The notes under the pieces: model-generated
The model's database searches: none
What the model saw: the letters and a program-made list of their open reading frames with translations, nothing else
What the model was told of the DNA's origin: nothing
Origin: Pseudobdellovibrionaceae bacterium
Lineage (GTDB): Bacteria > Bdellovibrionota > Bdellovibrionia > Bdellovibrionales > Bdellovibrionaceae
Direction: 5' to 3'
DNA: 64,000 nucleotides
Assembly: GCA_016785955.1 (NCBI GenBank)
Contig: JAEUWH010000066.1
Coordinates: forward strand, 1-64,000
Part shown: piece after piece, positions 8,139 to 17,721 of the stretch
Numbering within the stretch: position 1 is the stretch's first letter
How the letters are laid out: each line of letters opens with the position of its first letter
Position numbers and translations under genes: made by a program

Positions 8139-9494
8139 ATGTCCACCGCTTCTAAAGCTAAGTCTTCTCGTGACGTCGTGATTGTTGAAGGTTTCAGAAC
8201 TCCCTTTGTTAAATCGGGAGACAAATTCTCGCAGGTGCATCCTGCCGATCTAGGCAAAACCGCTTTGAAAGCGGTCCTGGCTAAAACAAATTTAAATACT
8301 GATGAAATTGATGAAGTGATTATCGGGAACACCGGGAATCCTCCGGACGCCGTGAATATTTCGCGTGTGGTGGCTCTGGGGGCGGGGGTTCCACAAAAGA
8401 CGTCGGCCTATACGGTTCATCGTAATTGCGCATCCGCACTGGAGAGTATCTCGCAGGGGTTTGAAAAAATCCGTGGTGGCACGATGGAGGTGATCATCGC
8501 GGGCGGTACCGAGAACATGACACAGATGCCGGTGTTGATGCCGCAAAAATTCCAAAAAATATTTATGGACCTACCACGTGCCAAGGGACCAGCGCAGGCG
8601 TTGCCGTTGTTGTGGAAATTGTTTAAGACGGACGTGAAACAAATCAAAGCGATGTTAACCGGTGATATGCGTAACGAATTGATGCCGACAGCAGCGGTCA
8701 TGCAAGGATTAACAGATCCTTTTGTAGGGATCAATATGGGGCAGACTGCGGAAATTCTAGCGAAGGAATGGGGGCTGTCGCGCCAAACACAAGATGAATT
8801 CGCCCTTCGCTCGCACAAGCTGGCGTCGGCGGCTAAGGAAAAGCTTCGTGAAGAAATCGCTCCGGTGGCCTTGGGGCCGGATTACAAAGAAACGATCATT
8901 GATGATATCGGACCACGGGAAAATCAAACGTATGAAGCGCTGGCCAAGTTAAAGCCCTTCTTTGATAAAGAAACGGGATCGATCACGGCAGGGAATTCGT
9001 GTCCTATCACGGATGGTGCGGCGATGATCTTGATGATGTCGCGAGAAAAAGCGGAAAGTTTGGGGTATAAACCTCTGGCAAGAATTCTGTCCTATGGTTT
9101 TGCTGGTCTTGAGCCCGAGCGCATGGGGCTGGGGCCCGTGTACTCGACGCCCTTGGCGTTGAAGCGTGCGGGTTTAAGTTTGAAGGATATGGGGCTAGTG
9201 GAATTAAACGAAGCGTTTGCGGCGCAGGTTTTGTCCTGCCAAAAGGCGTTGGATTCTGATGAGTTTGCAAAAAATAAATTGGGTTTGTCTGCAAAAGTAG
9301 GCGAGTTGCGTTCTGAAATTGTCAATGTCAATGGCGGCGCCATCGCGCTGGGGCACCCGGTGGGCGCAACGGGAACGCGCATCACTTTGACGTTGATGAA
9401 AGAAATGCGACGACGAAATACGCAGTTTGGCTTGGCCACTTTGTGTATTGGTGGCGGTCAAGGTGGATCTATCATTATCGAAAACGAAAACTAA
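8139..9494 (+). CDS. fadI: Acetyl-CoA C-acyltransferase (3-ketoacyl-CoA thiolase)
   Basis: 451 aa, the size of FadI-type thiolases. The acyl-accepting Cys lies in HRNCASALESIS (near residue 94), the catalytic His in NGGAIALGHPVGATGT and the second Cys in LCIGGGQGG, all in the expected order. GITDGAA-type and LGLGPVYSTP-type segments fit too. It cleaves 3-ketoacyl-CoA to acetyl-CoA and a shortened acyl-CoA. The fadJ-like gene follows within 30 nt, giving a complete beta-oxidation pair. FadI is preferred over FadA for length and partner; the choice is inference. Confidence 0.9.
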   Translation: MSTASKAKSSRDVVIVEGFRTPFVKSGDKFSQVHPADLGKTALKAVLAKTNLNTDEIDEVIIGNTGNPPDAVNISRVVALGAGVPQKTSAYTVHRNCASALESISQGFEKIRGGTMEVIIAGGTENMTQMPVLMPQKFQKIFMDLPRAKGPAQALPLLWKLFKTDVKQIKAMLTGDMRNELMPTAAVMQGLTDPFVGINMGQTAEILAKEWGLSRQTQDEFALRSHKLASAAKEKLREEIAPVALGPDYKETIIDDIGPRENQTYEALAKLKPFFDKETGSITAGNSCPITDGAAMILMMSREKAESLGYKPLARILSYGFAGLEPERMGLGPVYSTPLALKRAGLSLKDMGLVELNEAFAAQVLSCQKALDSDEFAKNKLGLSAKVGELRSEIVNVNGGAIALGHPVGATGTRITLTLMKEMRRRNTQFGLATLCIGGGQGGSIIIENEN

Positions 9495-9521
9495 TAACAA
9501 CTAATGAACCAGGACAAGGGA

Positions 9522-11678
9522 ATGAGCACTATGAAAAACAGTTTGAAACTGAAATACCAAAATGACATTGCAATTCTGGAATTAGATCTGCAAGGCGAGA
9601 AAGTGAATAAACTTTCGACTCCGGTCATGAATCATTTAAAAGACGTGATTGACGAGGTGGCACGCTCGAAAGCCAAGGTGTTTGTTATTCGCTCGTTAAA
9701 GCCGAAAATTTTTGTGGCTGGGGCGGACATTGAAGAAATTAAAAATTTAAAAACTAAGGATGAGTTTGAAAAAGCCGTCCGCGGTGGACAAGATATATTC
9801 AACAGGCTCGAGGATATGCCGCAGGTGACGATCGCCTCGATCAATGGGGCTTGCGCCGGTGGTGGATGTGAAATGATCTTGGCGTGTGATTATCGAATTG
9901 CTTCCGAGGACTCGTCCACGCGCATTGGATTGCCTGAAACTCAGCTGGGTATTATCCCGGGCTTTGGGGGCTGTGTTCGATTGCCACGTGTTGTGGGTTT
10001 GCAAGCAGCTTTGGATATCATTCTTGCGGGAAAATTATTGAATGCTAAAAAAGCCAAAAAAGCGGGCTTAGTTGACAAGCTGGTTCATCCTGGAATTTTG
10101 GAAGAAGAGACGATGAAGTGGGCCGCGCAACTGGCCCAAGAGGGCGGTAAACGTCGTAAACAGTTCAAGGCGCAAGGTTTGGTGAATACGATTTTGGAGG
10201 GTGGCTTGGGGCGCCGGGTGGTTTTTTCAAAAGCGAAAGAGGCCACGCTGAAAGCAACCAAAGGTCATTATCCCGCGCCGTTAGCGGCGTTGGATGTGAT
10301 CAAAGAGACCTATGGCATGAGCGATCGTCAAAAGGCATTGGACATCGAGCGGACGTATTTCTGCGAAATGGGAATCACGGATATTTCTAAAAATTTAATT
10401 CACGTGTTTTACCTGACGGAAATGGTGAAAAAACAAACAGGATTGCCGGCGGGCAGTGCGGCTAAGGCTAAAGATGTTAAGGCCGTGGGGGTGCTGGGAG
10501 CGGGAACCATGGGTGGTGGTGTGGCCTACATTGGTGCCGACAAGGGCATCCAGATGCGCATCAAGGATATTAACTATGAAGCTTTAGGAAAAGCCTATAA
10601 ACATGCCTCGGACCTATGGACTAAGCTGGTGAAAAAGCGAGTCATTGATAAATATCAAGCCAAGCAAAAAATGGATCTCGTGTCGGGTGGTATCGACTAT
10701 GCGGGATTTAAAACGTTGGATGTCGTTATCGAAGCGATCGTGGAAGATATGAACATTAAACGCAAGGTCATTGCTGAAACGGCGGGGCAAATGCGCGCGG
10801 ATGCGATCATTGTGACCAATACGTCGTCCTTGAGCGTGACCGAGATGGGGGAGGCGCATCCGAAGCCGGCTCAATTTGCGGGGATGCATTTTTTTAATCC
10901 CGTCGATAAAATGCCTTTGGTCGAAGTTATCCGAGGGCCTCAGTCCAGTGATGAAACGATTGCAACGATTTTTGAATTGTCCAAAAAAATGGGCAAGATG
11001 CCTGTCGTGGTCAAAGATGGACCCGGTTTTTTAGTGAATCGTCTTTTGATCCCTTATTTGAATGAAGCCACTTTTTTGTTTCAAGAGGGGATGGATATTA
11101 AAACGTTGGATGACTATTACGTAAAGAATTTTGGTATGCCGATGGGCCCCTTAGCCTTGATGGACGAGGTGGGGTTGGATGTCGGGATCAAGGTCGTCAA
11201 GATTTTCAACAAAGCGTTTGGTGCGCGTGTGCAGATACCCGAAGTGATGGAAAAAATTGGCAAGTCTGGTCGTTTGGGCAAAAAGAACGGTAAGGGTTTT
11301 TATAAATATTCGGACGAGGGCAAACGGCTTGAACCGGATGACACCATCTATGCCGAATTGGGTTTAAATGCACCGAAAAATCCCTACACCGAAAAGGAAT
11401 GTATTGAACGCGGGATTTTCTCGATGATCAACGAGTGTGCCTCGGCTCTGTATGATGATAAGATTGTGGAGACGCCGGACGAGGTGGACTTGGCAATGAT
11501 CATGGGCACGGGGTTTCCGCCCTTTCGAGGGGGCTTATGTCGTTACGCGGACAGTGTCGGCTCGCAAACGATTGCCACGGCACTGGAAGCATACTCGTTG
11601 CAACGAAGTACGCCCCGCTTAAAACCTATGGCGGCATTGAATGCCATGGCCAGGGATAATAAAAAATTCTATACATGA
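9522..11678 (+). CDS. fadJ: Fatty-acid oxidation alpha subunit: enoyl-CoA hydratase / 3-hydroxyacyl-CoA dehydrogenase
   Basis: About 718 aa from the chosen ATG, close to FadJ (714 aa). Residues about 10-200 are a crotonase domain (GACAGGGCEMILACDYRIAS; GLPETQLGIIPGFGG). Residues about 315-500 are the NAD-binding dehydrogenase domain (GVLGAGTMGGGVAYIG; AGMHFFNPVDKMPLVEVI), followed by the C-terminal dehydrogenase domains. AGGA (9511-9514) lies 7 nt before ATG 9522; ATG 9531 is also possible, and ATG 9504 has no ribosome site. Together with the upstream thiolase it converts enoyl-CoA through hydroxyacyl- and ketoacyl-CoA to acetyl-CoA in the cytoplasm. Confidence 0.93.
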   Translation: MSTMKNSLKLKYQNDIAILELDLQGEKVNKLSTPVMNHLKDVIDEVARSKAKVFVIRSLKPKIFVAGADIEEIKNLKTKDEFEKAVRGGQDIFNRLEDMPQVTIASINGACAGGGCEMILACDYRIASEDSSTRIGLPETQLGIIPGFGGCVRLPRVVGLQAALDIILAGKLLNAKKAKKAGLVDKLVHPGILEEETMKWAAQLAQEGGKRRKQFKAQGLVNTILEGGLGRRVVFSKAKEATLKATKGHYPAPLAALDVIKETYGMSDRQKALDIERTYFCEMGITDISKNLIHVFYLTEMVKKQTGLPAGSAAKAKDVKAVGVLGAGTMGGGVAYIGADKGIQMRIKDINYEALGKAYKHASDLWTKLVKKRVIDKYQAKQKMDLVSGGIDYAGFKTLDVVIEAIVEDMNIKRKVIAETAGQMRADAIIVTNTSSLSVTEMGEAHPKPAQFAGMHFFNPVDKMPLVEVIRGPQSSDETIATIFELSKKMGKMPVVVKDGPGFLVNRLLIPYLNEATFLFQEGMDIKTLDDYYVKNFGMPMGPLALMDEVGLDVGIKVVKIFNKAFGARVQIPEVMEKIGKSGRLGKKNGKGFYKYSDEGKRLEPDDTIYAELGLNAPKNPYTEKECIERGIFSMINECASALYDDKIVETPDEVDLAMIMGTGFPPFRGGLCRYADSVGSQTIATALEAYSLQRSTPRLKPMAALNAMARDNKKFYT

Positions 11679-11732
11679 GAGAGAGGCGCGACCGCAGGGT
11701 CAGCGCCGCATGCCGAGCAGCGATTGTGTTTT

Positions 11733-12320
11733 CTAGTGATGTTGTGAGCGCTGATTGGTGCAGGCATGTTGCACGCGCAGGAAATAAGGATGCATTTTCT
11801 TGTTGAAGAACTGCGCGCGAATAAGCCACGCCACTCCGAGTGCATCATTAACAGGTAAATCGCAGAATCCGCTGTGAATGTAACAGGAATAATGGGACTC
11901 CATTGCAAATGATTCTACGGTGGAGCAAGAAACTTGATCATGATTCTTGAGGGCGGCAATTAAACACGAGCGAATCTTGGATAAAATAACCTGCCCCTTT
12001 TTGGAAAAACGATGGGCATTGTCTAGAAAATGATGGCAATATTTGTAGCCAAATTGAGTCAGGTAATTGTCAGAGTCGCAATGGAGCGTGTCGCTGAGTG
12101 CGCAATAAGCGGCACACTCAGATGCTTCGTTTTTGCACGCAAAATCATGCGCGTATAACTGGTTTTGGTTTTTACCTTGAGCGTGTGCCAGAGTTCGAGC
12201 GGAAAATTGCGCCAGAGTTTGTGCCTGAATTTTTATACATATACACAAAGATAAAAATAAAGTGAATAAAGCCAAAATTTTCACGTTGTGGAATATAGCA
12301 GCTCGTGGAGATAAGCACAA
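11733..12320 (-). CDS. Exported disulfide-rich protein resembling stanniocalcin
   Basis: 195 aa with a signal peptide (hydrophobic KILALFTLFLSLCICIKIQA). The mature part has eleven Cys. From memory of human stanniocalcin-1, the Cys spacing agrees strikingly: C-x23-C (CHHFLDN to IRSC), CST followed by C 14 residues on, C-x6-C (CYIHSGFC), a helix of about 35 residues, then a last Cys, plus a CD[ST]D motif before the first of these. Stanniocalcins are secreted calcium/phosphate-regulating glycoproteins of animals; a bacterial role is unknown. A GTG at 12284 would give a shorter, tighter signal peptide. The gene is divergent from the S41 protease gene. The relationship is inference until a profile search is run. 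Confidence 0.7.
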   Translation of the reverse strand: MCLSPRAAIFHNVKILALFTLFLSLCICIKIQAQTLAQFSARTLAHAQGKNQNQLYAHDFACKNEASECAAYCALSDTLHCDSDNYLTQFGYKYCHHFLDNAHRFSKKGQVILSKIRSCLIAALKNHDQVSCSTVESFAMESHYSCYIHSGFCDLPVNDALGVAWLIRAQFFNKKMHPYFLRVQHACTNQRSQHH

Positions 12321-12667: not shown

Positions 12668-12723
12668 AATCAGACAGCTGTCAATCAATGTTCTTCTGTA
12701 TATTTTTGGCTTTAAGGAGACCT

Positions 12724-14592
12724 ATGCGCATTAAGTTTTTTATAGTCGCCGTTATTTTTACCAGTTCCGTATTCGCTAACAATGAGTGTATCTATTTTTA
12801 CGGACCTGACAAACCGGAATTAAGAATGATTCACTATGCCCTGCGGAACCATGCTTTAGTGTCATCATTAACCCCTGAATTAACAAGAAAATCTCTCAGA
12901 AAGTTTATTGAAATTTTAGACCCCTCACGTTTTCTATTTTTAGAAAATGAAATAAAACCGTTAATAGATGTTGCGCCGGACGTTTTGGCATCAATTCACA
13001 GGGATGTCGTCAGTAATCCCAAACCCCAGTTTCACAAAGACCTTCAAAATATAGCCATCAGCCGCTTAGACCAATTCATAGAGCTTTTAAGAAACGATAA
13101 AAATACAAGAGATCGCATCCGCGCAGAACTTTCAAAAATTCAGCAGACCAACTCTTTTTATAGAAAGCCGACCGGCTACCCAAAAAGTCAGCAAGACGCT
13201 TATGAAACTTTTGTTCGCTTCATGGCGCAAACGGCGTTCATATATATTAAGACTGCAGAGCAACAGAAAATACCCATGACCAACTTAGAAGCATTCGTTA
13301 TGGCCATTCGAAACTTCAAAGGTGAAATTCAGTCAGAACCCTATATATATGACGAATCTTTTTTACCGGCACTTGTAGCGAAGTCTTATATCATAAATTT
13401 GGATGCTCATAGTGACGTTTTACTTCCTAAAGAAGCTCGAAGTTTGACTCAAAGTTTGAGCGCAGAGTACTCGGGCATTGGTACGGATTTGGTTCCTGCC
13501 ATAAAAGGCGTGCTTATTCACAACGTATACAAAGACTCAGGTGCGGAACATGCGGGCCTGAAGCCCGGCGATATTATTACGCACGTAGAATTAACGTCCG
13601 AACTGAAAGACTCTTTAAATGTACTTTACCCTAAAAATAATCCCGGCTCTAGTTGGTTACTCGTTCGCAACCTAGATCTAAGTACCTTTACGCAAGAAAT
13701 CATTTTAGGAAGAGAAAATACGGTCGTTAAAATGAGAATTTTAAGAGACGGGAAACCCATCGAAGTTGAAGTCGAAAGACGTCTTATTTCCCAAGCGAAC
13801 ACGGGGTTGCATTTGGAAAATCACAACGTGCCAATTGGAAATGTAGCTTATTTAAAATTTGATAGCTTCTACGTGGGCTCGGCCGATCACGTGGCTCAAA
13901 AAGTTCGAAAGGCCAAAGAAAGTAATGCTCTTGGTTTTATCCTTGATCTCAGAGGCAATGGCGGTGGCAGTGTAAAAGATATGATTAAAATCCTAGGATT
14001 GTTTGTAAAAGCTGGCCCTGGGATAGTCATTAAAAAAAAGACGTCTGAAGCCGTCTTCCCTATAGCTGAGAATAATGTACCGGAATGGGACAAGCCACTA
14101 ATGGTATTGATAGATAACGCGTCGGCAAGCGCAAGTGAAGCCTTAAGCGGCGTTTTACAAGATTATGGCAGAGCCATAGTGGTCGGGGCTCACGTAAGCT
14201 CGTACGGAAAAGGTTCGACACAAATTATTAATCCTGTGGGAAATGCAACTCTTATTAGGTTAACGACAAATCTTTTTTCATCACCTGGTGGAGGTCACAA
14301 GCAGTTTGATGGAGTGATACCAGATATATTGATTGAAACTCCTATGAGCACCGGTTTTAAATTTGAAAGGGACACAGGAGATGCAATTCGGCCACAGGAT
14401 ATCTCGCCCGTTACCTTACCGGAAATTTATATTCCTAATAGGGCTGACGTGATTAAGTCTTTGAAGTCTTTTCAGAGAAAAAAAATTATCACCGAACATG
14501 AAATGAATGAAGCTAACACCAAGGATATTGATTTATTGAAAACAGAGGCTTTACAGATGATGTCCGATCTCATCGGGCTATTAGAAAAGTAA
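12724..14592 (+). CDS. Exported S41-family C-terminal processing protease (Prc/Ctp type)
   Basis: 622 aa from ATG 12724, chosen because AAGGAGA lies 3 nt upstream and a clean signal peptide (18 residues, ending VFA) follows. The mature N terminus carries NNECIYFY, the C-x-x-F-Y motif. A PDZ domain lies around residues 245-350 (GIGTDL, HAGLKPGDIITHVE). The S41 core has FILDLRGNGGGSVKDM, the serine motif NASASASEALSG near residue 466 and the lysine in YGKGSTQ near 495, forming the Ser-Lys dyad. Such proteases trim or degrade periplasmic proteins from their C termini. The metzincin-like gene follows 16 nt downstream, so they form an operon. Confidence 0.9.
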   Translation: MRIKFFIVAVIFTSSVFANNECIYFYGPDKPELRMIHYALRNHALVSSLTPELTRKSLRKFIEILDPSRFLFLENEIKPLIDVAPDVLASIHRDVVSNPKPQFHKDLQNIAISRLDQFIELLRNDKNTRDRIRAELSKIQQTNSFYRKPTGYPKSQQDAYETFVRFMAQTAFIYIKTAEQQKIPMTNLEAFVMAIRNFKGEIQSEPYIYDESFLPALVAKSYIINLDAHSDVLLPKEARSLTQSLSAEYSGIGTDLVPAIKGVLIHNVYKDSGAEHAGLKPGDIITHVELTSELKDSLNVLYPKNNPGSSWLLVRNLDLSTFTQEIILGRENTVVKMRILRDGKPIEVEVERRLISQANTGLHLENHNVPIGNVAYLKFDSFYVGSADHVAQKVRKAKESNALGFILDLRGNGGGSVKDMIKILGLFVKAGPGIVIKKKTSEAVFPIAENNVPEWDKPLMVLIDNASASASEALSGVLQDYGRAIVVGAHVSSYGKGSTQIINPVGNATLIRLTTNLFSSPGGGHKQFDGVIPDILIETPMSTGFKFERDTGDAIRPQDISPVTLPEIYIPNRADVIKSLKSFQRKKIITEHEMNEANTKDIDLLKTEALQMMSDLIGLLEK

Positions 14593-14608: not shown

Positions 14609-15724
14609 ATGAATGAAGAAAAAACCTTTGTGTTAATGACATTTTTTTTACTATTAATTTTTCAACCTCTTTTTTGTTCGGCCGATTCAAATATGGATCC
14701 GTTCCTTATAGAGCAGAGCTACTTATTAGATGTATGGAAGCCGCCGCAGGATAACTTCGTTCCTTTAAAAATATTTGCTCATATGCGTTCTGGAAATCAA
14801 AAGTTAAATGACGATATTGAAGTCGGTTCCCTTGAATGGAAGGATGGGAAATGGCAACTTATCCTTAAAATTGGTGTTTGGGGGGTAAGCGCGTTTTCAC
14901 GGGTGAGGGCTGCCGAATGGATGTCTGCTCGAGACTGGCAAATACAGGAAAGAGAACCCAATATAATTAAGGAAAGCTATTTTAGAAATACCTTTGAAAA
15001 TTTGTCAGGAAATGATCTTAAAAAATTTCTTCCCAAGTCATTCGATGATATTCCAGAATTAGCGGAATTAATTCGCAAACAACTTACGCAAGTTGAAAGT
15101 ATGTTTAACACTAGTTTCATTAGAACCCAATTCCAAGTGCATTTTATTAACGAACGTGATCTTGTTGCTCAAGACTTATGGCTCAATCCCGAAAATATTA
15201 TCCCTAAAATCAGTGAAAGAATTTTCAGTGCCCAGCTAACCGCTAAAAATTTGTTTCTACCTTTGAATTATATGCCAATTCCAAACCCAGGTATAATCAC
15301 CCCTGGATCTGGGGATCCTTATACTTGGGCACAACTCATGGCGCACGAGATATTTCACTTAATAAGTCGCATTCATTTTAATGATGGTTTTATTTTTTCT
15401 AATTATCCAATAGAAGGAATTATGAATGGTGGTCAACAGCATAGGTATCTACGGGATGTGAGCGGCGGGGTGGCAACACTACTCGGCTTAGAGCTAAATA
15501 CTCTCATTGCGAGTCAAATAGATTTTAGAAATAGAACAATTCCGAACGCAACAACTGATATATATTCAATTGCTGAAAATTTTGGAAAGCCTAGCTACTT
15601 TACGGAAGCTATTTTAACCGATAACTTAAAGCACTATGTTGACGAGCCAGAAGAAATTCGGCAACAGGTTTATCGATACAAAAAAAGAAAACTGACTTCA
15701 TGTTTAAATTTTTATTCGAATTAG
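14609..15724 (+). CDS. Exported putative zinc metallopeptidase (metzincin-like) with a C-terminal CxxFY motif
   Basis: 371 aa. Signal peptide about residues 1-25 (ending LFCSA). HEIFHLISRIH at residues 246-256 fits the metzincin consensus HExxHxxGxxH with Ser in place of Gly, and a possible Met-turn (GIMNGG, Met 272) follows 16 residues later. The upstream half is of unknown fold. The last residues are SCLNFYSN, the motif seen at the N terminus of the protease encoded just upstream. It is the second gene of that operon. The peptidase call is inferred from motifs; substitution of the Gly is unusual but does not remove a zinc ligand. Confidence 0.7.
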   Translation: MNEEKTFVLMTFFLLLIFQPLFCSADSNMDPFLIEQSYLLDVWKPPQDNFVPLKIFAHMRSGNQKLNDDIEVGSLEWKDGKWQLILKIGVWGVSAFSRVRAAEWMSARDWQIQEREPNIIKESYFRNTFENLSGNDLKKFLPKSFDDIPELAELIRKQLTQVESMFNTSFIRTQFQVHFINERDLVAQDLWLNPENIIPKISERIFSAQLTAKNLFLPLNYMPIPNPGIITPGSGDPYTWAQLMAHEIFHLISRIHFNDGFIFSNYPIEGIMNGGQQHRYLRDVSGGVATLLGLELNTLIASQIDFRNRTIPNATTDIYSIAENFGKPSYFTEAILTDNLKHYVDEPEEIRQQVYRYKKRKLTSCLNFYSN

Positions 15725-15797: not shown

Positions 15798-16196
15798 TCA
15801 TAGATTAGTCTTAAATAAGTCGAATCGGCCACATTCTATTTTCTTTACCAATTCTTTATTTTGATTGGATGAATTATTAACGTTTAAAGACAAAGATTGC
15901 ATAAATACAATAGGTCTTTTTTGGTTTTGGATCGCTTTGGGGACATATATTTTGGTGAAAACTAGCTCATCGGTAAAAAGGAGGCGACGCCCAAAATTCC
16001 CACCTAGCAGAATTAGTTCATGCTCAAAACGGGTATCAGGATTGACTCGCAGAATGGTAAAGTTCTTAGTTTGCGTAAGCCTTCCAGAAATATTATAATA
16101 TCCGCAGTCGTACTGCCAAGGTAACAACTCAGCCCCGTTACCATTCGAAACAAAAAGTCCTAAAAGGAAAAATACAAATTTAGTTTTTTTGATCAA
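15798..16196 (-). CDS. Small exported beta-rich protein coupled to the legumain-like peptidase
   Basis: 132 aa from a TTG start at 16196, chosen because GAGGAG lies 7 nt upstream and a proper signal peptide (KKTKFVFFLLG to NGNGA) follows. The longer ATG frame from 16247 lacks both. The start lies inside the last codons of the upstream peptidase gene (17-nt overlap), so the two are translationally coupled. The mature protein contains DCGYYNISG and ends with KIECGRFDLF; the two Cys probably pair. Function unknown. Being co-translated with a peptidase, it might be its inhibitor or chaperone (inference). Confidence 0.6.
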   Translation of the reverse strand: MIKKTKFVFFLLGLFVSNGNGAELLPWQYDCGYYNISGRLTQTKNFTILRVNPDTRFEHELILLGGNFGRRLLFTDELVFTKIYVPKAIQNQKRPIVFMQSLSLNVNNSSNQNKELVKKIECGRFDLFKTNL

Positions 16197-17721
16197 GAGG
16201 AGTCTCCTCACAATTTTTAATAGACTCGTATAACTTTTTAATTTCATTGTTGCCCGGTAAGTTTAAATAATCTAAGGCAATGTCCTGACAAGCTTGATTT
16301 CTTAGATCTAACAACCTTTTACTGACTCCTTCTCCTTTATGCCGCTTTCGGATTTCCTCGATATCAAATGGTTTTTCATTATGAGAACTCAATTTGTCTA
16401 TAATTTCATAGCTGGTCTCACCAGACGATCGATTTGCAAATAACTTGGCAAATATCGGAAATCTAGATCTATTTTCTTTAACCCACTTAGCATTTAAATG
16501 TCGGTTTATAAAACCTTCGAACTCTTTTTTAAGTATTTCGCCATTAGTCCGGATAGAATATACATCGCTTTTGTAAGAATTTAATGCCGACTGGTGATCG
16601 ATTGAAAGAGCCAAGGCCTTTTCCCTCTCTACGATATCTTTGTATAATTCGACTCGTTCAGGGTAGTTAGTTTTTAAAAATAGATTCGGTAATATTTCAT
16701 TTTTTAACTTATGCCATTCTTTAACAGCGGCTTCATTTTCTTTGTTGGGTATGATCTCTGGAGCATAACGCAAGTCTAAACCACATGAGTTACATTTTAG
16801 TTGGTCACATGTTTTTTCGAGGTCGCTAAGCCCAGAACTGGCTTGACAAGTTGACGGTTCGGACTTCGTTTTATGTTTACAAAAAGCTTGGCCAATATCC
16901 CGCATAAAGTATCCTAAGGTGGTAACCGGATAGGTGTAATCGTAAGTAGAAGTATCGATTAAATCTTCTTTTAAAGTTTTGATTGTAGCAGTTTTAGCTC
17001 CAGTTAGCACTTTGAACCATTTGGAATTCTCTGGGACTGCTCCATTAGTCCAAAAATTCGTCAGCTGGTTTTCATCTCCCGTTCCAAAGGCACATACATT
17101 AGAAAGATAATTTTCTTTAAGAAACCGAGGCAATTCTTCTAACGATTTCGGTTGACTCCGATTTGGATCAACAATTGTTGCACCTGAAAAGCAATGGCTA
17201 TGAATGACGCGAATTTGTGTGTTTGGAAATTTCTTGAAAATTTTATTCAGTTCGGTGGCCGAAAGAGATTCATTTTCCTGGCACATAGTGTTTCCATTTG
17301 GCCACAAACAAACTCCGGTTTGCAATCCATGATCAGTAAAAAAGACCGTCAAAGTTTTTGGATTTTGTTCCGCTAGATTTTTAAATGCACCTAAAATATT
17401 TTCCTTTGTTGCTGGGACGGCATCAGGTAAACGTGATTTTTCTAATAAGATAAATCCGCTGTCGTCTCGTTCCCAATTATTATAGACATCGCGATCGGAA
17501 TGTAAAATTTGTTTTGGGACACCAATTTGAGGCCCGCCAGCACTAAAAAATTTACCTTTTCCTGGAGAAATTACTTTTTGAAGGGCTAACAGTTCTGTTT
17601 CAAATTTCGGAGAATTAAATGTCGTTTCGGCTCCGCCATTAATATAAATATAGACATCTTTTTCGGAAGACAATGAAGGACTGGATAAGAAGAAGAAAAG
17701 GAGTAAGCTACTAAAAGACAT
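16180..17721 (-). CDS. Exported clan CD cysteine peptidase (legumain/caspase-like)
   Basis: 513 aa. Signal peptide about residues 1-19. TLTVFFTDHG (His 131) followed by IRVIHSHCFSGA (Cys 177) has the hydrophobic strand, DHG, strand, xxC-S-G layout of clan CD peptidases; FTDHG is closest to the C13 legumain/GPI-transamidase group. Residues about 270-310 carry six Cys (CKHKTK, CQASS, CDQLKCNSCG). The C-terminal 200 residues are helical and unassigned. These peptidases cut after specific single residues or carry out transpeptidation. The next gene overlaps its end. Assignment rests on motifs, not on a search. Confidence 0.72.
   Translation of the reverse strand: MSFSSLLLFFFLSSPSLSSEKDVYIYINGGAETTFNSPKFETELLALQKVISPGKGKFFSAGGPQIGVPKQILHSDRDVYNNWERDDSGFILLEKSRLPDAVPATKENILGAFKNLAEQNPKTLTVFFTDHGLQTGVCLWPNGNTMCQENESLSATELNKIFKKFPNTQIRVIHSHCFSGATIVDPNRSQPKSLEELPRFLKENYLSNVCAFGTGDENQLTNFWTNGAVPENSKWFKVLTGAKTATIKTLKEDLIDTSTYDYTYPVTTLGYFMRDIGQAFCKHKTKSEPSTCQASSGLSDLEKTCDQLKCNSCGLDLRYAPEIIPNKENEAAVKEWHKLKNEILPNLFLKTNYPERVELYKDIVEREKALALSIDHQSALNSYKSDVYSIRTNGEILKKEFEGFINRHLNAKWVKENRSRFPIFAKLFANRSSGETSYEIIDKLSSHNEKPFDIEEIRKRHKGEGVSKRLLDLRNQACQDIALDYLNLPGNNEIKKLYESIKNCEETPLDQKN

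Follow-up and report, generated by a model that had tools for sequence, protein, structure and literature searches.

Evidence for members of the stanniocalcin superfamily in Bdellovibrionota and Myxococcota

Introduction

The cysteine framework of stanniocalcin-1 (STC1) includes residues 45, 54, 59, 65, 74, 98, 114, 128, 135 and 170 (PMC2744999). Five disulfides are known experimentally, namely C45-59, C54-74, C65-114, C98-128 and C135-170, with C45-C59 and C54-C74 having been assigned by mass spectrometry, the former indirectly (PMC2744999). In 2022 the fold of STC2 was reported to lack structural homologues, and the phrase 'the first of its family' was applied to it (PMC9579167); a lack of homologues has also been named as the obstacle to understanding the stanniocalcins (PMC2744999). 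Biochemically, STC2 is best characterised as an inhibitor of the metzincin PAPP-A (PMC9579167, PMC9780223), and binding of hemin has been reported for STC1 (Westberg 2011, cited in PMC3861479).

Here, a stanniocalcin-like gene within a 64,000-nucleotide stretch of Pseudobdellovibrionaceae DNA (referred to as the window) was examined, together with its bacterial relatives. An earlier note, made from the window sequence alone, had proposed that the product is a bacterial counterpart of the stanniocalcins. Stanniocalcins are said to occur in unicellular eukaryotes, Roch and Sherwood having reportedly surveyed the eukaryotes in 2011. No open-access paper linking stanniocalcin to these bacteria was found, although an earlier notice of the link in that survey cannot be excluded.

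Results

The gene and its product

The gene occupies positions 11733..12320 of the minus strand, with a stop codon at 11735-11733, and encodes a protein (P0001) of 195 aa when read from the TTG at 12320; its best Pfam match is PF03298. The open reading frame is as the earlier note had described it, and the exported nature of the product is apparent from a signal peptide in the translation. A GTG at 12284-12282 (V13, followed by KILALFTLFLSLCICIKIQA) is inferred to be a likelier start than the TTG because a normal signal peptide then results (VKILALFTLFLSLCICIKIQA, 12222..12284, minus strand, identified from the translation). The GTG-AAA-ATT start is kept in a paralogue encoded in the same genome; no ribosome-binding site stands out clearly. 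The stanniocalcin-like ten-cysteine core, from Cys62 to Cys187 (11760..12137, minus strand), is supported by profile, fold and cysteine covariation, and the protein ends 8 residues past the tenth cysteine.

Cysteine framework and disulfides

The core cysteines of P0001 (62, 69, 73, 81, 95, 119, 132, 146, 153 and 187, lettered a to j in chain order) are separated by gaps of 7, 4, 8, 14, 24, 13, 14, 7 and 34, and map one-to-one on Cys45, 54, 59, 65, 74, 98, 114, 128, 135 and 170 of STC1, where the gaps are 9, 5, 6, 9, 24, 16, 14, 7 and 35 (positions from PMC2744999). The similarity in spacing on which the earlier note rested its case was thus borne out, in that the C-x23-C, the CST with a cysteine 14 residues on, the C-x6-C and the ~34 residues to the last cysteine are all present, as is the C-D-[ST]-D motif (CDSD in P0001, CDTD in STC1). 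The local likenesses that it listed (FDTQGK with FSKKGQ, CYSKLNVC with CYIHSGFC) are correct on the bacterial side; for STC1, the peptides presented in PMC2744999 show part of them.

Such gaps recur across 134 non-redundant relatives: all 134 have a g-h gap of 14, 109 an h-i gap of 7, 94 an i-j gap of 34-35 and 85 a b-c gap of 5, and 24 is the modal e-f gap (69 relatives). Because of this recurrence, the match in cysteine spacing between P0001 and STC1 is, on sequence grounds, beyond what chance would produce. The alignment of the 134 members contains exactly ten conserved cysteine columns and no other conserved cysteine, and six of the ten are present in every complete sequence.

The remaining four cysteines are lost in pairs. 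Cysteines a and c are both present in 112 members, both absent from 21 and discordant in one (a count that leaves out two signal-peptide cysteines), while for b and e 125 members have both and nine have neither, with no discordant case. The b-e pair is missing from one Myxococcota group. The co-lost pairs correspond to the C45-C59 and C54-C74 disulfides of STC1, such that two of the five are reproduced; with ten cysteines, the chance of two named pairs both matching one fixed pairing is 1/63. The strength of this evidence is limited by phylogeny, since a weakly supported tree has nine changes for each of a and c but only one for b and e, and paired losses are uninformative for the six cysteines that never vary. 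By analogy with STC1, disulfides in P0001 would be expected to link residues 62-73, 69-95, 81-132, 119-146 and 153-187. As a separate observation, a Bdellovibrio member (locus L194) has its first cysteine segment duplicated in tandem (CTPSANSCEFYQCTPSANSCEFYRC), upstream of the core.

A histidine in an SHxxCY motif (His143 of P0001, H132 in 184-aa numbering; codon 11892..11894, minus strand) is invariant in the 54 aligned members from Bdellovibrionota and Myxococcota. STC2 has no histidine at this position in the HMMER alignment, and the residue is, as far as the aligned proteins reveal, a bacterial signature.

Profile searches

When P0001 alone was compared with Pfam, the Stanniocalcin family PF03298 was the best match, collinear over 135 residues yet weak (E 0.017, 15 bits, below the Pfam cut-off of 23 bits). 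A match of this kind with a single sequence is only suggestive, and the family was therefore collected. PF03298 matched 28 of 44 aligned members, the best at 7.6e-7, and no other Pfam family matched more than one of the 44; CIAPIN1 and other weak matches were dismissed as single-member noise. A separate search of genomes with PF03298 gave matches at loci already located by the family search, with six genomes or loci above the curated cut-off; Myxococcota members taken singly did not match PF03298. Databases may already flag the few bacterial proteins that are above threshold. A search of NCBIfam with the stanniocalcin-like family gave no match.

In the reverse direction, a profile of the bacterial family was compared with all 177,635 PDB sequences, Cys-rich proteins included. 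Three chains of human STC2 were matched at 2.4e-6, with the next, unrelated, entry at 0.24; with a profile combining Bdellovibrionota and Myxococcota members, STC2 was the only significant match (8.1e-7; next 0.88). A stanniocalcin profile match, the check proposed in the earlier note, therefore holds for the family (28/44 members, six above cut-off, STC2 at 8e-7), and fails for P0001 by itself, which stays below the cut-off.

Predicted structure

An AF2 model of P0001 was obtained with a pLDDT of 86.8 (90-98 in the core). A Foldseek comparison of this model with 350,542 chains placed STC2 first and second, with probabilities of 0.99 and 0.94, all other chains having values of 0.15 or less; in the VIA comparison STC2 gave a Z of 9.9 over 136 residues and the best unrelated chain 5.4. 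In absolute terms the scores are modest, with weak Foldseek E values (0.056 and 0.2), a TM of ~0.43 and an rmsd of 5-7 Å, and Z values of ~9-10 can be common among helical bundles. For this reason the fold test was repeated with a second AF2 model, that of a Myxococcota lipoprotein built from a Myxococcota-only alignment. Again STC2 was ranked first by Foldseek (probability 0.97; next 0.08), with a Z of 9.6 at 3.7 Å over 126 residues and the best unrelated chain at 4.0. The models hence predict the all-helical stanniocalcin fold for the bacterial family, with STC2 on top by a clear margin, though no structure has been solved. A search of the BFVD viral folds with the model returned no match.

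Structure prediction, as suggested in the earlier note, has accordingly given STC2 as first match for two models from separate phyla. According to that note, the absence of a significant profile match together with a fold or disulfide pattern unlike that of stanniocalcin would have refuted a stanniocalcin-like identity; this check did not refute it.

Distribution and domain architecture

Family members were identified in 103 of 369 Bdellovibrionota genomes with a single-sequence search and in 113 with a profile search, which also located members in 26 of 189 Myxococcota genomes; none was recovered by the profile from 150 Pseudomonadota or 118 Desulfobacterota genomes, where only fragments were matched. 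Screening of 84,980 genomes with a degenerate DNA pattern revealed many members in Bdellovibrionota and Myxococcota, and the matches outside both phyla (among them Flavobacterium, Pontibacter, Desulfobacterales and Nitrospina) were attributed to chance. Viral contigs encoded no relative, a pattern match at locus L064 being without a family member, and none was found on plasmids or in phages. One member is present in the complete genome of Bdellovibrio bacteriovorus strain kdesi, which belongs to the same family of bacteria as the window genome.

Depth and diversity are evident within the bacterial family, whose members are ~20-35% identical and spread over many genera of the two phyla. Those of Bdellovibrionota are mostly free exported proteins (~160 aa) that bear a signal peptide and are secreted or periplasmic, and those of Myxococcota are often lipoproteins of ~250 aa in which the stanniocalcin-like domain is C-terminal, a lipobox cysteine being present in all 19 Myxococcota proteins inspected (signal peptides and lipoboxes were read by eye). 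The Myxococcota lipoproteins (loci L065, L137, L116 and others) have, in their N-terminal ~100 residues and ahead of the stanniocalcin-like domain, an additional Cys-rich region of ~90 residues with the pattern C-x9-C ... C ... C ... CxxG.

Genomic surroundings

The P0001 gene lies convergent to fadJ (9504-11678), with fadI (8139-9494) further back, such that it is located downstream of fadI. A convergent stanniocalcin-like gene is likewise found at the fadI-fadJ 3' end in another family of the order (L216, G257:C65). The paralogue of P0001, which is 64-65% identical, is encoded on contig C50 of the same genome, where it accompanies a second fadJ (L002, G000:C50:1-3006; compare 9504-12320 of the window). 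The FadJ copies from the window and C50 are 93% identical as against 65% for the stanniocalcin-like cores, and because of this disparity either the stanniocalcin-like gene evolves fast, or it diverged after duplication, or C50 derives from a co-binned relative. Adjoining the gene in the window is one for an exported S41 tail-specific-type protease (12688-14592, plus strand), followed by genes for an exported 371-aa protein with an HEIFH motif (14609-15724, plus strand) and an exported 513-aa protein (16180-17721, minus strand) whose FFTDHG and HSHCFSG motifs resemble those of caspase/legumain-type cysteine peptidases, without a Pfam match. No conserved operon, neighbourhood or partner was found for the stanniocalcin-like loci.

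Discussion

P0001 is very probably a distant but real relative of stanniocalcin, belonging to a branch of the superfamily in bacteria, and the results show that a fold supposed to be animal or eukaryotic is also present in bacteria, in about a hundred related genes. It could be argued that an unrelated bacterial family of Cys-rich helical proteins has converged by chance on the same spacing and on a generic helical bundle. The low identity (~15-18%) and the modest TM-scores and rmsd of the P0001 model allow for this, and chance matches between helical bundles arise readily. However, the family profile reached STC2 with an E of 8e-7 and nothing else in the PDB, two models from separate phyla place STC2 far above every other chain, and the co-loss of cysteines fits two specific STC1 disulfides, leaving convergence as a highly improbable account. 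It can also be imagined that a predatory bacterium recently acquired a stanniocalcin gene from a eukaryote, in that predators of other cells could acquire foreign genes and unicellular eukaryotes reportedly possess stanniocalcins, but such a transfer is hard to reconcile with a bacterial family that is deep and diverse and has its own invariant histidine and lipoprotein fusions, and little credence is given to it.

That the bacterial branch of the superfamily comprises an extracytoplasmic, disulfide-rich helical domain is solidly supported; its function can only be inferred. The domain, predicted to be all-helical and held together by five disulfides, would presumably be oxidised by the Dsb system in the periplasm, and its place of action would be extracytoplasmic, where it would serve as a rigid binding module resistant to proteases. 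Since STC2 inhibits a metzincin, metalloproteases near the bacterial genes were examined. Conceivably, the domain would bind and regulate extracytoplasmic zinc metalloproteases, as an inhibitor, pro-domain or chaperone, in the manner of STC2 with PAPP-A, although this remains a tentative proposal. Genes with an HExGH motif made up 20 of 729 within five genes of the loci, versus 9 of 1256 control ORFs (60 control regions from the same genomes), and when collapsed to genera there were 11 against 4.6 expected (p 0.01). Exported HExxH proteins share an apparent operon with the stanniocalcin-like gene at L231 and L233 (gaps of 8 and 17 bp) and at L232 (4-bp overlap), and a convergent Met-zincin (PF16313) occurs at L241, L242 and L255. 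Against this, p is 0.12 at ±1 gene after collapse to genera, the enrichment is partly post hoc, no partner is constant, M43 pappalysins never co-occur with the gene, and the linking cysteine of STC2 is without a counterpart. The enrichment is thus modest, and represents a lead rather than a demonstration. M43 pappalysins were found in 13 of 369 Bdellovibrionota genomes, and not one of these 13 is among the 113 that have a stanniocalcin-like gene, which, as far as the searches reach, rules out pairing with a PAPP-A analogue in the same cell in Bdellovibrionota. Because the PAPP-A-linking cysteine, the dimer cysteine and pappalysins are all absent, any binding of metalloproteases would be non-covalent or would use other partners. 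A family of small, exported, Cys-rich putative metallopeptidases (HE[LIV]GHxxGGxP ... EGQADYF) was also seen within five genes of the locus at L180, L193, L220, L229, L232 and L240; the one member scanned, that at L220, has only a sub-threshold match to Pfam M48.

A role without any protease, as a structural or an adhesive or ligand-binding protein of the envelope and perhaps in contact with prey, is about as likely, and as tentative. The protein would then be a surface lipoprotein in Myxococcota and periplasmic or secreted in Bdellovibrionota, and the signal peptides and lipoboxes, the patchy distribution over two phyla that contain predators, and the lack of a conserved operon are all in keeping with this; there is, however, no direct evidence for surface exposure or expression in the prey phase. 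Binding of a small ligand, or of metal or haem, via the bacterial-specific SHxxCY histidine seems rather unlikely: the residue is invariant in 54/54 members from two phyla, and there is a report of hemin binding by STC1 (Westberg 2011, via PMC3861479), yet only this one histidine is invariant, it could be structural, and the family members have no evident haem-binding motif in common.

With regard to origin, the fold could feasibly be an invention of Bdellovibrionota and Myxococcota for regulating extracellular metalloproteases, passed to eukaryotes before it took on the role of animal hormone and PAPP-A inhibitor, but such a history is speculative and improbable as matters stand. The bacterial branch provides small ten-cysteine cores in organisms that can be manipulated genetically in the laboratory (Bdellovibrio and myxobacteria), and some of the cores have genes for candidate partners next to their own. 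It thereby becomes testable how the fold originated and whether control of proteases is ancestral; the question of origin has been opened as opposed to settled.

Comparison with known stanniocalcins

The bacterial proteins are not classed as STC1 or STC2 proper because they have only ten conserved cysteine columns and P0001 ends shortly after the tenth. The eleventh cysteine, which forms the disulfide-linked dimer (C202 in STC1, C211 in STC2), is absent from the bacterial family. STC2 has, besides Cys211, the PAPP-A-linking Cys120 and a long C-terminal region, and the bacterial proteins, which are ~15-18% identical to it, are without all three. As homologues of the core that lack the dimer cysteine, they give no indication of a hormone or calcium function. 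Compared with STC1, they carry a bacterial signal peptide or lipobox and the invariant histidine, and the d-e loop of P0001 is 5 residues longer (a gap of 14 as opposed to 9). PF03298 is the best and only recurrent Pfam match of the family, with P0001 (15 bits) and the Myxococcota proteins below the cut-off. Human STC2 (PDB 8a7d, 8a7e, 7y5q and 8hgh) ranks first among the structural matches of each model, with the entire core covered, and its six cysteines e-j align column by column with the bacterial family. With human and fish STC1, the ten core cysteines correspond one-to-one at near-identical spacing, and P0001 shares the CST, CY and CDTD-like local matches. Lacking the dimer and PAPP-A-linking cysteines, the bacterial domain corresponds to the monomeric stanniocalcin core, equivalent to residues ~45-170 of STC1.
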